A stretch of DNA of 64,000 bases from Oceanobacillus zhaokaii. Lineage in GTDB: Bacteria; Bacillota; Bacilli; Bacillales; Amphibacillaceae. Position 1 is the first letter of the stretch. The number at the start of each line of letters is the position of its first letter. The notes beneath the pieces are model-generated. The model saw only the letters and a list, made by a program, of their open reading frames with translations, did no database searches and was not told the origin of the DNA. This document shows, one piece after another, positions 36,848 through 41,408 of the stretch. The position numbers and the translations under genes were made by a program. Where the stretch lies: NCBI RefSeq assembly GCF_003352005.1, contig NZ_CP024848.1, positions 2,427,001 through 2,491,000 on the forward strand, given 5' to 3'.

Positions 36848-38401
36848 TTAATAGTTTTTCCATGCATTCTCATATAGTTGAATTAAATGTGGATCAATTA
36901 ATGTATTAGGCTTTAATGTAACTGAATCACCGTTTTTATCCTCGATAATCGAGTCCTCGTCAGCACCAAAAGCCGTTAAACTCGGGAGCAGATCCGTTTT
37001 CAAAAATCGAGTTGGGATGGTAATATCAACTGTTTGAAGATCAATCTTCCCACGACTTGCCATCACAAATCCCCAGTTGCCGAAGCTTGGTACATCAACA
37101 TGAAGATTTTCCGTATATAATCCCGCCGAGATGACGGTTTCAGCTATTGTCCAATATACTTCAGTTGCAAACACAGGGCTTGTCGCCTGAATCATCGCCG
37201 CTCCACCTGGAAGCAAATGATTACGGACAAGTGAATAAAATTCCTTCGTGTACAGCTTATTTAAGCTTTCGTCATTTGGATCTGGTAAATCGATAATAAT
37301 TACATCGTACCATTCCTCTGATTCTTCTAAAAACTGAAAGGCATCCATATTTTTCACATCAACTTTATCATTTTGCAAAGCACCTTCATTTAATTTCAGC
37401 AGCCGCTCATTCGTATTCGCAAGCTCTGTCATCGCTGGATCAAGGTCGACCAAAGTAATATGCTTGACTTCATCATATTTCAGTACTTCCTTTGCGGCAA
37501 TCCCGTCACCACCACCTAGAATCAGCACTTTTTCCGGATTCTCTGCATAGGCAATTGTCGGGTGGACGAGTACCTCATGGTAACGATATTCATCTGCCGA
37601 GCTAAATTGCAAGGAGCCATTTAAATAAAGCCGCACATCCTCATCTGCACCCTGTGTAAGAATAATTTTCTGGTAATTTGTTTCTTCCATAAGTAAAATT
37701 GGGTCCTGATATAGCTTTTGTTCAAAATTAAAGGCAGCAGCCTCGCCGAATAGCAAACCAATGATTAAAGCGACTAATATCACAATCCCACAAATGGCAT
37801 GTACCAAGAACTTACGTATTTCTTTTCGGAATAGCCATAACACGGTTAATGCTACAAGAACATTAACACAGCCTACTAGAAATGCCGATTTCACCATGCC
37901 AAACTGCGGGCGTAATAGGAAAACGAATAGCAGCCCACCAATTAGTCCACCAGCATAGTCAGAAAACAGTACCCTCGCTGTACTCTTATTTAATTTCACA
38001 CCAATTTCATTTGCCTTGCGGATAAGGATTGGCAACTCAAATCCGGTTAACGCACCGACTAAAATCGTAATGAAATATAAATAAAATGCATCGGTTCCAG
38101 CAGGCGCATATGCGGTAATCCCAAACATCGTAAAGCTGGAAAATCCGCCGATCAGCCCTACACTGAATTCAACCCAAATAAAGGAAAGTATTAGATTTTT
38201 CATTACCTTCTCACTCAGGCTTGCACCAATTCCCATTCCCGTTAAAAACAGCGAAATTGTTAATGTATACTGTTTGACTCCATCACCTAATATGTACGAT
38301 CCTAACGCACCAAACAGAACCTCAAAGATAATGCCACAAATTGAAACAATTCCAGATGACCAATAAATAATCGTGCTTTTTCTTATTGCTTCCTCATTCA
38401 C
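36848..38401 (-). CDS. membrane-fused spermidine synthase-like protein
   Basis: About 517 residues. The N-terminal half has seven or eight hydrophobic segments (near 10-210). The C-terminal half is a polyamine aminopropyltransferase fold: YHEVLVHPTIAY near 278, ILGGGDGIAAKEVLKY near 298, TLVDLDPAMTELA, and DVIIIDLPDPNDE near 365. In true SpeE the HPAL, GGGDG and D(S)TDP motifs bind aminopropyl donor and amine; here HPT and DLPDP deviate. Start is GTG 38401 with GGGGTG 6 nt upstream; GTG 38410 is also in frame. Last gene of the sigma-W module, after a terminator-like hairpin. Product not proven to be spermidine. Confidence 0.8.
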   Translation of the reverse strand: MNEEAIRKSTIIYWSSGIVSICGIIFEVLFGALGSYILGDGVKQYTLTISLFLTGMGIGASLSEKVMKNLILSFIWVEFSVGLIGGFSSFTMFGITAYAPAGTDAFYLYFITILVGALTGFELPILIRKANEIGVKLNKSTARVLFSDYAGGLIGGLLFVFLLRPQFGMVKSAFLVGCVNVLVALTVLWLFRKEIRKFLVHAICGIVILVALIIGLLFGEAAAFNFEQKLYQDPILLMEETNYQKIILTQGADEDVRLYLNGSLQFSSADEYRYHEVLVHPTIAYAENPEKVLILGGGDGIAAKEVLKYDEVKHITLVDLDPAMTELANTNERLLKLNEGALQNDKVDVKNMDAFQFLEESEEWYDVIIIDLPDPNDESLNKLYTKEFYSLVRNHLLPGGAAMIQATSPVFATEVYWTIAETVISAGLYTENLHVDVPSFGNWGFVMASRGKIDLQTVDITIPTRFLKTDLLPSLTAFGADEDSIIEDKNGDSVTLKPNTLIDPHLIQLYENAWKNY

Positions 38402-38422
38402 TACAGACACCCCATTAAACGA

Positions 38423-38456
38423 AAATAAAAACAGCGGCCGAGCTTTGGCTGGCCGC
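38423..38456 (-). terminator. strong terminator-like hairpin between DUF350 gene and the SpeE-like gene
   Basis: GCGGCC (38434-38439) with GGCCGC (38451-38456) and AGC/GCT inside, 4-nt loop, followed on the minus strand by TGTTTTTATTTT. It ends about 20 nt before the SpeE-like start codon, so expression of that gene depends on read-through or a separate start. Confidence 0.8.
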
Positions 38457-38473
38457 CCATATCTTAAAACACA

Positions 38474-38869
38474 TTATGTAATCGACGCACCAACAACGAG
38501 CGCAATCCCAATTGATACACTAAACGAAATAATACCAACCGCGATATTATTCTTCTTCAATTCATCTTCAACGGAAAATCTTCTTATCACCAAATTAACG
38601 AGCACATAGGCAATCATTTGCAGGACAACCCCAAATACTCCCCATATTACTGTTTCATAAATGTAATTGCTGTGATAAATTGCAAAGGCAAGAATGATAC
38701 TTATGCCGACAATCTTCCCTGCAATCGATAGGGCGACAGCTGAATTGCCATTATGCACTTCTTCCATATCCTTATACTTTCTAGTTAAAAGTTCAAAAAT
38801 AACGACCCCTATTAAAATGATAACAATCGAAATGAAAAAATATGCAATCGTTGCGATATATGCCTCCAT
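38474..38869 (-). CDS. DUF350 (YjfL-like) membrane protein
   Basis: 131 residues with four hydrophobic segments near 3-25, 46-66, 72-95 and 108-130, the pattern of DUF350. Function unknown; DUF350 genes recur next to PspA and polyamine-related enzymes in distant bacteria, including the E. coli yjf cluster. AAAGGAGG precedes the ATG. 15 nt after the DUF4247 gene. Confidence 0.85.
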   Translation of the reverse strand: MEAYIATIAYFFISIVIILIGVVIFELLTRKYKDMEEVHNGNSAVALSIAGKIVGISIILAFAIYHSNYIYETVIWGVFGVVLQMIAYVLVNLVIRRFSVEDELKKNNIAVGIISFSVSIGIALVVGASIT

Positions 38870-38884
38870 CGATAATCCCTCCTT

Positions 38885-39508
38885 TTACTTTCCTGTGTTC
38901 GGACCGCCGCCCCTAAATGTCGTATTTCCTCGATTTGGTGTGCCATAACCAGAATATGTTCCGGAGTTCCGCTGGCTTCCCCAATTACTGCCAAAGATAC
39001 TATCTAGAAGCCTAATTCCGAAATATGTTTGTAAAAAGCTTGGTGAATAATTTCTTTGTACAAATTGCTCTGTAGCAACTTCAATCAGCAATACATTCTC
39101 ATCATCCACACTAGGCTTCAGCGTAACAAAATAATCCGGATAAATAAAGATTTGCTGCTGATCGATGACCTCACTAGTTTCCTCTGGCTCAACCTTCGAC
39201 GTTAAAACACTAGCAAGTTCTTCTAAGGTAAATTCCTTCGTTGCATAGATTTCTGCTGTAGTGGACTCATCTGTCACAACGTCAACTAGAGGAAAGTTTG
39301 CCTCGATAATCGAATCGATTTGGCTACTCGGACTTGCAGCAATAGCAGCTTCAATTTCTTCTTTTCCAGATTCATCGGGAATACTCTCCGCTGTTATCGT
39401 GATTTCCTGTTGAATTCCTCGATCAGAATTATCCATAGGGGATGAGCAGGCAGTTAAATATAAGATAAATAATATAAAGCCACTAAGCATACACCATCTC
39501 TTTAACAA
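38885..39508 (-). CDS. DUF4247 lipoprotein
   Basis: About 207 residues from TTG 39508, which has AAAGGGGG 6 nt upstream; the open frame continues to 39616 but that part overlaps a hairpin and lacks similarity. A lipobox LYLTAC at residue 21 predicts a lipoprotein on the outer face of the membrane. Residues 60-165 are the DUF4247-like core, ending FFVQRNYSPSFLQTYFGIR-like; the C-terminus is a Gly/Asn/Arg-rich tail. Part of the PspA operon. Confidence 0.8.
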   Translation of the reverse strand: MLKRWCMLSGFILFILYLTACSSPMDNSDRGIQQEITITAESIPDESGKEEIEAAIAASPSSQIDSIIEANFPLVDVVTDESTTAEIYATKEFTLEELASVLTSKVEPEETSEVIDQQQIFIYPDYFVTLKPSVDDENVLLIEVATEQFVQRNYSPSFLQTYFGIRLLDSIFGSNWGSQRNSGTYSGYGTPNRGNTTFRGGGPNTGK

Positions 39509-39612
39509 CTTAATCCCCCTTTCGATAGGAAACCGGGCATTCGCCAAGTCATTAGGTGAATGCCATAGTTGCCCTATGCAGAAAGAAATATCGATATACT
39601 TTCTTACTGCGA

Positions 39613-39646
39613 ACATAAGGGAGCAGTAATCACTGCTCCCTTATGT
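39613..39646 (-). terminator. perfect 15-bp hairpin after pspA
   Basis: ACATAAGGGAGCAGT (39613-39627) and ACTGCTCCCTTATGT (39632-39646) with a 4-nt loop. No T-run follows, so it looks like an intra-operon attenuator or RNA-stabilising stem rather than a full stop. Confidence 0.65.
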
Positions 39647-39662
39647 CAGATCCCATCATGCC

Positions 39663-40331
39663 TTATTCTTTACCCATTTTTTGTTTCAATGCAGCTAGTT
39701 CATCATCTACATCATTTTTAATTAAATCTTCAAATTCATCATCTAATGAACGGCTAGCCTGTGACAAGTCTTCACTTGTTTCTGCCTCTGCTTCAAAACG
39801 CATGACTTTCTCTTCCATACGCTCGAATCCACGCTTCGATGCATCATCGCCAATCGATGACATTGTACGATTTATTTTCGTACGTACTTGCGCAGATTCT
39901 GCACGTGCCTTAAGCGAATCGCGTTTTAAATTCATTTCTTGATATTCTTTCTTCATTTCATCTAAGCGTTCGCGAAGTAAATCTGCATCAGCCTTCGCTC
40001 TTTCCCAAGATTCATTTAATGCTACTGCTGTCGCATCATGATCCTTCTTATCTTGCAGTGCACGACGAGCTAAGTCATCATTACCAGCTTCAACAGCTTT
40101 TTCTGCTTGTTCTTGCCTTTTTTGTACTAATGCTAGTGCATCATTTGCTTTACGTTTCAGCATTTTCTCATTTGCGATTTGTTTTGCTACAGCCGCTTCT
40201 ACTTCGCGAATGTCTTCTCCCATGTCACGCATGTACTGATCCAGCATTTTCACCGGATCCTCTGCTTTATCAAGCATTGCATTCAATTCTGAACCTACTA
40301 CTGTTTTTACTCGTTTAAAAAATTTAAACAT
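39663..40331 (-). CDS. pspA: phage shock protein A homolog (PspA/IM30)
   Basis: 222-residue, almost entirely helical coiled-coil protein that binds stressed membranes. N-terminus MFKFFKRVKTVVGSELNAML is an amphipathic helix, followed by AEDPVKMLDQYMRDMGEDI typical of PspA. Heptads run to about 180; the C-terminus ends ELAALKQKMG. Second gene of the sigma-W module; in B. subtilis pspA (ydjF) is likewise sigma-W dependent. Confidence 0.93.
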   Translation of the reverse strand: MFKFFKRVKTVVGSELNAMLDKAEDPVKMLDQYMRDMGEDIREVEAAVAKQIANEKMLKRKANDALALVQKRQEQAEKAVEAGNDDLARRALQDKKDHDATAVALNESWERAKADADLLRERLDEMKKEYQEMNLKRDSLKARAESAQVRTKINRTMSSIGDDASKRGFERMEEKVMRFEAEAETSEDLSQASRSLDDEFEDLIKNDVDDELAALKQKMGKE

Positions 40332-40361
40332 TTATTTTCCTCCTTTATATTATATCCTTCT

Positions 40362-40874
40362 TTAGATGGATCCTGCGATTATCTTGAGCTCATAAGGCTC
40401 AATCGCGAATCCGGTACTTACTTCAATTTCAGTGTCCCATGATTCTAACCCGAGAAAGTTCTCCTCTGAATCATCCTCATAATCAGCATAATGGGTTTCC
40501 ATTCCATGCACATTAGAACTTCGACCTTCACCGATTACTCTCGCAACGCCCTCTTCCTCCAAATAATACGTTTTATTGTCATACGTCAACTTCTTCGGAT
40601 ATGGCTCAGACACTTGGAACTTCACCTTTTCATACATTGCCAGCTCAAGTTCATCATCCATTTCCACTGACAACCATAATGTCTTCTCTTCCCCTAGTAG
40701 CTGGTAATCATACCATTCATAGCTGCCATCTCGGAGTGTAATTTTTCCTACAACCTCGAAATCCTGTAATTCATAGGTGATGATATCGCCTACTTTCATA
40801 TTAAGTACAGTTCTTTTTTCTGTTGTAGGCTGGTTTTGATCCTTTTTTGAAAAAAACTTTGAAAAAAATCCCAT
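40362..40874 (-). CDS. DUF4178 protein, first gene of the PspA module
   Basis: 170 residues from ATG 40874 (GAGGTG upstream). The central domain has MKVGDIITYELQDFEVVGKI near 27, YEWYDYQLLGE near 56 and a beta-rich body, matching DUF4178. It is soluble with a short basic start. Function unknown; DUF4178 occurs beside PspA in many bacteria. Preceded directly by the sigma-W promoter. Confidence 0.82.
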   Translation of the reverse strand: MGFFSKFFSKKDQNQPTTEKRTVLNMKVGDIITYELQDFEVVGKITLRDGSYEWYDYQLLGEEKTLWLSVEMDDELELAMYEKVKFQVSEPYPKKLTYDNKTYYLEEEGVARVIGEGRSSNVHGMETHYADYEDDSEENFLGLESWDTEIEVSTGFAIEPYELKIIAGSI

Positions 40875-40912
40875 CAATTCACCTCTAGTTCATTTCGACG
40901 TTATAATAGTTA

Positions 40913-40938
40913 TACGAATATAAATCAGAATGGTTTCA
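40913..40938 (-). promoter_or_regulatory. ECF sigma-W promoter of the PspA module
   Basis: Minus-strand TGAAAC (40933-40938), exactly 16 nt, CGTA (40913-40916), followed by TA. This is the full B. subtilis sigma-W consensus. The expected leader to the DUF4178 ATG is about 30 nt. Confidence 0.85.
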
Positions 40939-40983
40939 AAAAAAATATATAAATTTCTCATTTCATAAAGATTGTTGTAATTT

Positions 40984-41341
40984 TGATAAACTGCTAATTA
41001 GGTGTAACTTTGATTTAAGCTCCGGAGAGTCGCACCACCTTAAGGCAACGCGGTCTGCTCCATCGAAAGCAGTAATTTTTCCTGCAGGAGTCTCCTGTCC
41101 TGCTGCAATCAACAGCCATAAGAGAGGCAAATGCTGTTCTATCTCTAATAGGGGGATAGAACATATCATTACTGCACAATCCCAGCGGAGGAAATACACT
41201 GAGACTCCTGCGGGAGGAAGAGCTTTGGTGAGACTTCGAAGTGCGTCAGCACGAGAAGGCTCACCAGCCCTCCACGGAAAGCGTAGTGTATTTCCGTAGC
41301 GACTGGCCAGGAAGCATCCCTCTTAGTTCGTACCTTTAAAT
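40984..41341. repeat. MITE-like repeat copy A (composite)
   Basis: Left edge TTGATAAACTGCTAATTA and right edge, read inward, carrying CGAACTAAGAG resemble the ends of copies B (43450-43826) and C (57478-57626). Inside is a segment with GGAAATACACT (41190-41200) and AGTGTATTTCC (41285-41295) as perfect inverted repeats. It contains GACTTCGAAGTGC and AGGCTCACCAGCC, also present in copy B. No gene; fills the 400-nt gap upstream of the peptidase. Confidence 0.65.
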
Positions 41342-41408
41342 AAACCTTTTTGATAAACACACCTTACATTTGTTATACTAGTTATATTCTAACATAGAGG
41401 TGAAAACG

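Follow-up and report, generated by a model that had tools for sequence, protein, structure and literature searches.

Introduction

In Bacillus subtilis the pspA-ydj operon is under SigW control; to our knowledge it carries no DUF4178, DUF350, lipoprotein or SpeE-like enzyme gene. A major facilitator superfamily-spermidine synthase (MFS-SpdSyn) fusion found with S-adenosylmethionine (AdoMet) decarboxylase and DUF350 was reportedly described by Li et al. in 2019, with no acceptor named, and such fusions are said to fail to complement a speE mutant, spermidine being absent. A polyamine-derived chain on a protein is known from hypusine on eIF5A, where deoxyhypusine synthase places an aminobutyl group from spermidine on an internal lysine in the cytosol. 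The present analysis concerns a five-gene operon (36848..40938, minus strand) of Oceanobacillus zhaokaii encoding a DUF4178 protein, PspA, a DUF4247 lipoprotein, DUF350 and a membrane-fused spermidine-synthase-like enzyme, referred to here as the fusion. The window analysed is the 64,000-nucleotide stretch 2427001-2491000 of the complete, single-contig genome of 4.10 Mb. An operon of this type, the CesT/Tir-PspA-spermine synthase operon, is described in the main text of PMC11237479 (mSystems 2024), where the B. subtilis pspA-ydj operon is also named and aminopropylation of 'other substrates' is already suggested. Since the operon type is in print, the cluster itself is not new; neither expression data nor chemistry for it was found in the literature searched.

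Genes for AdoMet decarboxylase and spermidine-synthase-like enzymes are routinely annotated as polyamine synthesis. We propose, with confidence just short of even, that this is a SigW-type envelope-stress operon in which the fusion uses decarboxylated AdoMet (dcAdoMet) to aminopropylate the lysine at the C-terminus of the lipoprotein encoded in the same operon. As far as the literature was searched, the new elements are the conservation of the promoter, the pattern of AdoMet decarboxylase (SpeD) and agmatinase in genomes whose only SpeE-like protein is the fusion, the acceptor-side difference of the enzyme and the terminal-lysine tail. The original prediction for this locus, an earlier reading of the DNA, contained neither the lysine tail nor the tie to AdoMet decarboxylase, nor the prior description of the operon type.

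Results

Conservation of the operon and its promoter

The five minus-strand open reading frames (ORFs) were confirmed, with family matches well above cut-off for DUF4178 (PF13785, 117.7 bits, cut-off 25), the PspA/IM30 family protein (PF04012, 151.7 bits, cut-off 33.9) and DUF350 (PF03994, 124.8 bits, cut-off 26, four transmembrane (TM) segments predicted from hydropathy), and above it for the DUF4247 lipoprotein (PF14042, 37.9 bits, cut-off 27).

Main features of the operon, in window coordinates.
40913..40938, minus strand: SigW-type promoter TGAAAC-N16-CGTA, exact match
40362..40874, minus strand: DUF4178 protein, 170 amino acids (aa), ribosome binding site (RBS) GAGGTG and ATG at 40874
39663..40331, minus strand: PspA/IM30 family protein, 222 aa (PF04012)
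38885..39508, minus strand: DUF4247 lipoprotein, 207 aa, lipobox LTAC (PF14042), ORF open from 39616
38888..38914, minus strand: lipoprotein C-terminal tail RGGGPNTGK-COOH, its terminal Lys the proposed aminopropyl acceptor
38474..38869, minus strand: DUF350 (YjfL family) membrane protein, 131 aa (PF03994, hydropathy)
36848..38401, minus strand: fusion of a multi-TM and a spermidine-synthase-like domain, 517 aa, GTG at 38401, frame open from 38410

Conservation was examined in 90 genomes of the host's family. The fusion occurs in 54 of these and DUF4178 in the same 54, with canonical SpeE in 51 and SpeD in 65. All 53 contiguous family operons (that of G541, split over two contigs, was excluded) have the five genes in the same order on one strand, and all 53 hold the combination of PspA, fusion, DUF350, DUF4178 and lipoprotein that marks the group in the main text of PMC11237479. 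Among 299 genomes of the phylum, ten match the fusion family at E<=1e-60, nine of them above its cut-off; the fusion at L082, 330 aa long and below that cut-off, was excluded from alignments. A scan of genome contigs confirmed at least 568 relatives, the best 80 of which, retrieved by patterns containing D299 or D371/D374/N376, are called the named loci below. The nearest named relatives of the fusion are from Oceanobacillus, at 89-90% identity. Around the fusion, DUF4178 was found at 26, DUF4247 at 28, DUF350 at 28 and SpeD at 5 of the 29 Bacilli-type named loci, and DUF4178 at 25, DUF350 at 39 and SpeD at 21 of the 51 others. Because the profiles come mostly from Bacilli and the contigs are often short, these neighbour counts are lower bounds.

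An exact promoter with a spacer of 16 or 17 lies upstream of DUF4178 in 51 of the 53 family operons, and the remaining two (L022 and L062) have one mismatch each. Base-shuffled copies of 60 upstream regions gave three exact matches in 6000; the conservation is far above chance. Across the host genome there are 15 exact occurrences of TGAAAC-N16-CGTA and 3 of the reversed pattern. The exact promoter is also present at L077, one locus of another family of the same order, and was not found at six other Bacillota loci with a DUF4178 match, where 2-4 mismatches were seen. The host has a SigW gene (TIGR02948, 319.6 bits, cut-off 243.1), so that the two sequence marks of SigW regulon membership, conserved -35 and -10 elements and the sigma factor itself, coincide here. 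Because extracytoplasmic function (ECF) factors other than SigW read similar promoters, control by SigW itself is what we infer. The region just upstream of the operon (40963-41380) contains short ORFs only. Elsewhere in the genome a second PspA-like gene (L007) stands behind its own exact TGAAAC-N16-CGTA (1581589-1581614, minus strand), so that SigW-type promoters precede at least two PspA genes in the host.

These results bear on much of the original prediction. Its five adjacent minus-strand genes behind an exact TGAAAC-N16-CGTA were found as described, its SigW-type control agrees with the promoter conservation and the SigW gene, and the association it expected to be conserved rather than random is so in the neighbourhoods compared. 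Its view of PspA as a recurring partner in distant bacteria was not supported in that form, since PspA was found at 26 of the 29 Bacilli-type named loci and at only 5 of the 51 others; PspA was rejected as a core partner on that count.

A terminal-lysine tail upstream of the fusion

The lipoprotein ends in RGGGPNTGK. At the clusters examined (L021-L082), each of the 56 DUF4247 proteins ends in GK and has a lipobox pattern, and a search whose query lacked the tail gave 49 homologues, 11 of them overlapping the 56, that likewise all end in GK. At the 80 named loci a terminal-Lys tail was found at 70 (66 GK, 4 HK) and none at 8, and the other two (L126 and L184), with less than 1 kb of sequence upstream of the fusion, fall outside the 78 usable loci. 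The last of the named loci were assigned by eye, and two GK ORFs, that at L180 (5881-6114) and the first of those at L160, seem spurious; L180 is counted by its HK peptide. By comparison, 104 of 860 long open frames end in Lys generally. A GK end was seen in 70 of the 433 ORFs immediately upstream of the fusion and in 20 of the 3992 located elsewhere. Ends of the form GGGx1-7K occur in 47 of 3409 ORFs at the named loci; all 47 are GGGx2-5GK and belong to ORFs immediately upstream of the fusion. No report of a terminal-lysine tail was found in the literature searched, which included the main text, supplements excepted, of PMC11237479.

The carriers of the tail vary, being lipoproteins in most Bacilli and proteins of other kinds in distant Bacillota. 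DUF4178-TM-tail proteins with one predicted TM segment each carry it at 13 clostridial or coriobacterial loci, and in Acidobacteria, Bacteroidetes and others it is on small peptides of about 46-80 aa. Plasmids were sampled at 10 of 13 matches (H7, H8 and H12 were left out, and L204, with a truncated fusion, was counted as a miss). Three of the ten loci have a protein ending in GK, and four more have one ending in HK (three) or VK (one) in the slot between DUF4178 and DUF350. The plasmid cluster of Alteromonas mediterranea (L201, 4911-11551) has a 'toxic anion resistance' gene placed between speD and DUF4178; its lysine tail belongs to a protein of 510 aa whose start resembles a lipobox.

AdoMet decarboxylase without a canonical spermidine synthase

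The host encodes one SpeD (TIGR03330, 148.2 bits, cut-off 75.65), and the fusion is its single Spermine_synth-domain protein, no other SpeE being present. Of the 39 family genomes that lack canonical SpeE, SpeD is present in all 14 with the fusion and in none of the 25 without it (p 6.6e-11, uncorrected for kinship; the 14 genomes represent 8 genera). In five of these 14 fusion-only genomes the speD match is divergent from the DUF4178 match at a distance of 299-490 bp, corresponding to gene-to-gene gaps of 181-378 bp; no SigW-type site with at most one mismatch points toward the divergent speD in these five loci. SpeD adjoins the fusion in at least 26 of the 80 named loci, from several phyla. 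Strong agmatinase matches (>280 bits, 44 genomes) are all in genomes with canonical SpeE, a speE-linked agmatinase was found in 0 of the 14 fusion-only genomes, and in the host the agmatinase model gave no match at E<=1e-25. Because of the SpeD co-occurrence and the agmatinase pattern, the fusion is probably the user of dcAdoMet in fusion-only hosts, a donor use that is well supported, and probably does not act there as a spermidine synthase.

The host speD (L087:3954-5829) lies 3′ of a GntR/MocR-type regulator gene with no speE adjoining. In the relatives G539, G570 and G564 a related speD is followed by speE and an agmatinase gene, and since those relatives keep speD-speE-agmatinase, the host may have lost speE-speB.

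The fusion enzyme

The fusion matches Spermine_synth (124.9 bits, cut-off 22.9) and NF002956, 'polyamine aminopropyltransferase' (599.1 bits, cut-off 472), and stays below the cut-off of the canonical spermidine synthase model TIGR00417 (149.8 bits, cut-off 249.55). Residues Q244, Y274, D299, D321, D371 and D374 do not vary among the 61 fusions compared. With roles assigned from portions of PMC10146546, the dcAdoMet and catalytic residues (the Asp of GGGDG, the Asp pair of DxxD and the equivalent of Tyr79) are shared with the 23 of 51 canonical SpeE proteins used for comparison; alignment position 374 is Glu in 20 of these 23. On the acceptor side the fusion departs from them, with T407 for the D/E of QxD/ENP, F440 for the Tyr equivalent to Tyr241, and PNxExxxKLYT after DLPDP where canonical SpeE has a GPA loop. 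The donor and catalytic site is intact, and the acceptor side is unlike that of canonical SpeE. The predicted fold is that of SpeE, with best matches to 3anx (agmatine/triamine aminopropyltransferase) and 6bq2 (thermospermine synthase).

One alternative is that the fusion is a membrane-anchored synthase of spermidine or a longer polyamine, and that the operon raises free polyamine under stress, stabilising the membrane. The kept catalytic residues, the best fold matches and the NCBIfam name suit such an enzyme. The canonical D/E and Tyr are likewise missing from the solved enzymes 1uir/3anx, which use agmatine or triamine substrates. Taken by itself the acceptor side is therefore compatible with a polyamine acceptor, and of the possible putrescine sources the searches covered agmatinase. 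Nevertheless, acceptor-side residues unlike those of canonical SpeE, the lack of speE-linked agmatinase in every fusion-only genome and the reported failure of such fusions to complement a speE mutant speak against a polyamine synthase, which would also leave the terminal-Lys tail unexplained, and we regard it as improbable.

The letters HPT and DLPDP, which the original prediction had called altered motifs, proved misleading: the solved aminopropyltransferases 1uir/3anx and 6bq2 are near-identical there, with HPA and DLTDP/DLADP, and the catalytic Asp residues are kept. They were rejected as marks of a dead enzyme. Of the amines offered in the original prediction (a polyamine, or a lipid- or membrane-linked amine), the SpeD/agmatinase pattern and the acceptor-side residues would fit a membrane-linked one rather than free putrescine. 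The original prediction is supported in part: SigW-type control, gene association and a membrane-linked amine target are supported, and the altered motifs and the breadth of PspA are not.

Parallel with peptide-spermidine ligase clusters

Eleven clusters of YgiC/YjfC-type ligases (L192, L205, L208-L212 and L213-L215, with L207 giving no partner), for which 'peptide-spermidine ligase' is the RefSeq name, were compared. In all ten loci with a partner found, the partner protein ends in Gly or Ser; the tails are Gly/Ser/Arg-rich, with the motif RGG[FY]G in eight of ten. The Pseudarthrobacter, Acinetobacter and Proteus partners were picked by tail or by place among unnamed or misnamed neighbours. 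One partner, annotated as tRNA-dihydrouridine synthase (L213:2896-3393, 165 aa), is likely misannotated. The main reason to read the lysine tail as a substrate is that an acid end stands beside a carboxylate-using ligase and an amine end beside an aminopropyltransferase; by this analogy the tail would be the substrate of the fusion.

A second alternative is that the enzyme aminopropylates a membrane lipid or another small amine, the tail being an unmodified docking or sensing element or a binder of anionic lipids. Fusion of the enzyme to a multi-TM domain, the PspA and SigW-type context and the Gly/Arg/Lys-rich composition of the tail agree with this, yet the tail sits on different proteins with its C-terminal Lys kept. 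Because the terminal residue tracks enzyme class (Lys versus Gly or Ser), a substrate fits better than a docking element, and a lipid or small-amine acceptor seems unlikely. Extended beyond Bacilli, the proposal of tail modification becomes one of a widespread and hitherto undescribed modification, in which tails encoded by the operon (GK, HK and similar) would have their C-terminal lysine aminopropylated by a membrane-fused SpeE-like domain; this extension is put forward tentatively, with distinctly less than even confidence.

Membrane topology and side of catalysis

Family-average hydropathy of the fusion has seven peaks, the second being the weakest, and the main text of PMC11237479 also describes the fusion as having seven TM segments. 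The Lys and Arg content of alternate loops is unequal (10.1 versus 2.8 in 61 homologues, 8.7 versus 1.5 in 51 distant ones), and if there are seven segments these charges favour a cytoplasmic N-terminus and a catalytic domain outside. In the AlphaFold2 (AF2) model TM5 and TM6 form one continuous helix. Cysteine content was at most weakly informative: cysteines are absent from the SpeE domain in Bacilli (0 of 15628 residues), but also from cytosolic PspA (0 of 11771), and distant SpeE domains have 87 in 14688.

Since dcAdoMet is made in the cytosol, tail modification could instead be carried out before or during export by a cytosolic catalytic domain, with an even number of TM segments rather than seven. 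The joined TM5-TM6 helix and the six segments of single-sequence hydropathy agree with this variant, while the seven family-average peaks, the loop charges and the published seven-TM description argue against it, as do neighbouring flavin adenine dinucleotide (FAD) oxidases in other phyla that look exported by the twin-arginine translocation (Tat) pathway. This variant is rated somewhat below even. The FAD oxidase genes (L176, L182, L186, L188 and others) lie downstream of the fusion in Acidobacteria, Gemmatimonadetes and Bacteroidetes, the one at L174 being upstream. An RRxF Tat motif is present in 9 of 12 such ORFs, which were picked by position; L182, L186 and L188 were checked with Pfam, and L182 and L188 are of the amine-oxidase type.

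Intergenic hairpins, start sites and DUF4178

Intergenic features of the operon, in window coordinates.
39612..39647, minus strand: long hairpin at the PspA/lipoprotein junction, without a T run (RNA fold z -4.95)
38432..38458, minus strand: GC-rich hairpin followed by a T-rich run at the DUF350/fusion junction, terminator-like by sequence

Only the hairpin at the PspA/lipoprotein junction folds better than shuffled sequences, the other scoring z -0.89; neither was listed by a terminator scan. A stem of at least 10 pairs is present in 27 of 53 family operons at the first junction and in 24 of 49 at the second. The upstream hairpin is possibly an attenuation or mRNA-stability element, and with hairpins at both junctions the five genes may differ in expression. 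For the lipoprotein the most likely start is TTG 39508, where an RBS and the lipobox LTAC are present, rather than ATG 39616; for the fusion it is GTG 38401. The AF2 model of DUF4178 (predicted local distance difference test (pLDDT) score 89.6) is beta-rich, consisting almost entirely of strands, and a Foldseek search of it against the PDB gave no match at E<=0.001.

Discussion

In the mechanism proposed here, dcAdoMet supplied by the cell's AdoMet decarboxylase would be spent on an acceptor other than putrescine. The most likely acceptor would be the epsilon-amine of the terminal lysine in the operon's own RGGGPNTGK lipoprotein, the lysine side chain offering the same aminobutyl amine as putrescine. 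The predicted product, N6-(3-aminopropyl)lysine, would put a spermidine-like cation on the end of a tail that is anchored in the membrane. DUF350 may be the membrane partner and DUF4178 the cytosolic partner of the enzyme/tail complex, and PspA would shield the inner leaflet.

Several observations weigh against this proposal. On the supply side, the fusion-only genome G572 has an agmatinase match above cut-off elsewhere (203.5 bits), 7 of 51 genomes with canonical SpeE have no strong agmatinase, canonical SpeE is also present in 40 family genomes with the fusion, and the searches left out arginine and ornithine decarboxylases, other routes to spermidine and polyamine uptake. For the enzyme, to the acceptor-side likeness to 1uir/3anx are added the less strict N376, E378 and K382 (124, 110 and 133 of 141 fusions), and the invariance of the six residues in 141 of 141 fusions once the 80 named loci are added was, at D299 and D371/D374/N376, partly built in by the retrieval patterns. 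Single-sequence hydropathy of the fusion is above threshold for only six segments. For the tail, none was found at 8 of the 78 usable loci (L154, L155, L159, L170, L171, L174, L175 and L187) or at either Burkholderia plasmid locus, and the distant tails were partly found by looking for Lys ends. Judged by GK ends, the criterion fixed in advance, only 3 of the 10 plasmid loci qualify, 'any terminal Lys' (7 of 10) having been adopted after the HK ends were seen. Of the 50 distant tail proteins, 13, mostly acidobacterial peptides, have no clear hydrophobic segment, which leaves a sign of a membrane anchor in only 37. A Gly-rich GK end could also be a binding or sorting signal. Confidence in lysine-tail modification, and in its extension beyond Bacilli, was lowered slightly because of the hydrophobic segments, the TM count of six and the plasmid GK ends, and that in a polyamine synthase and in a cytosolic catalytic domain was raised slightly.

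The host and 13 other family genomes keep SpeD with neither canonical SpeE nor speE-linked agmatinase, only the membrane fusion, and the lysine tail narrows the question of what the fusion aminopropylates to a single residue. Taken together, these data join DUF350, DUF4178, DUF4247, PspA and polyamine chemistry in one testable envelope-stress mechanism. If it is correct, the membrane would display a spermidine-like tip controlled by envelope stress, a chemical counterpart of the peptide-spermidine ligase clusters. In the boldest version, dcAdoMet would be exported for catalysis outside the cytoplasm, and in other phyla the product would be the substrate of an amine oxidase exported by Tat; exported oxidation of the aminopropyl group could yield reactive aldehydes.

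Comparison with known systems

The proposed modification resembles hypusine on eIF5A in putting a polyamine-derived chain on a protein lysine, and differs from it in using a terminal lysine and an aminopropyl group rather than an internal, cytosolic lysine and an aminobutyl group. With the system attributed to Li et al. it would share the class of fusion and a polyamine-independent role for AdoMet decarboxylase; the difference is that the present proposal names a specific acceptor, the terminal Lys. The B. subtilis pspA-ydj operon is alike in that pspA is under SigW-type control there, in a relative from Bacillus. E. coli YgiC/YjfC with YgiB/YjfM are similar in having DUF350 and PspA neighbours in the yjf cluster and a partner protein with a Gly/Ser/Arg-rich C-terminal tail, whereas the enzyme is an ATP-grasp ligase and the partner tails end in Gly or Ser rather than Lys; a matching reading is suggested for the E. 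coli ygiBC and yjf clusters. No CesT/Tir-like gene was found in the operon or its two flanking genes, where the search was made. The operon in the main text of PMC11237479 has in common with the present one PspA, the 7TM-spermine-synthase fusion, DUF350 (YjfL), DUF4178 and a lipoprotein in one operon; there the set includes a CesT/Tir partner and the Ctha_1186 lipoprotein, and here a DUF4247 lipoprotein and a conserved SigW-type promoter.

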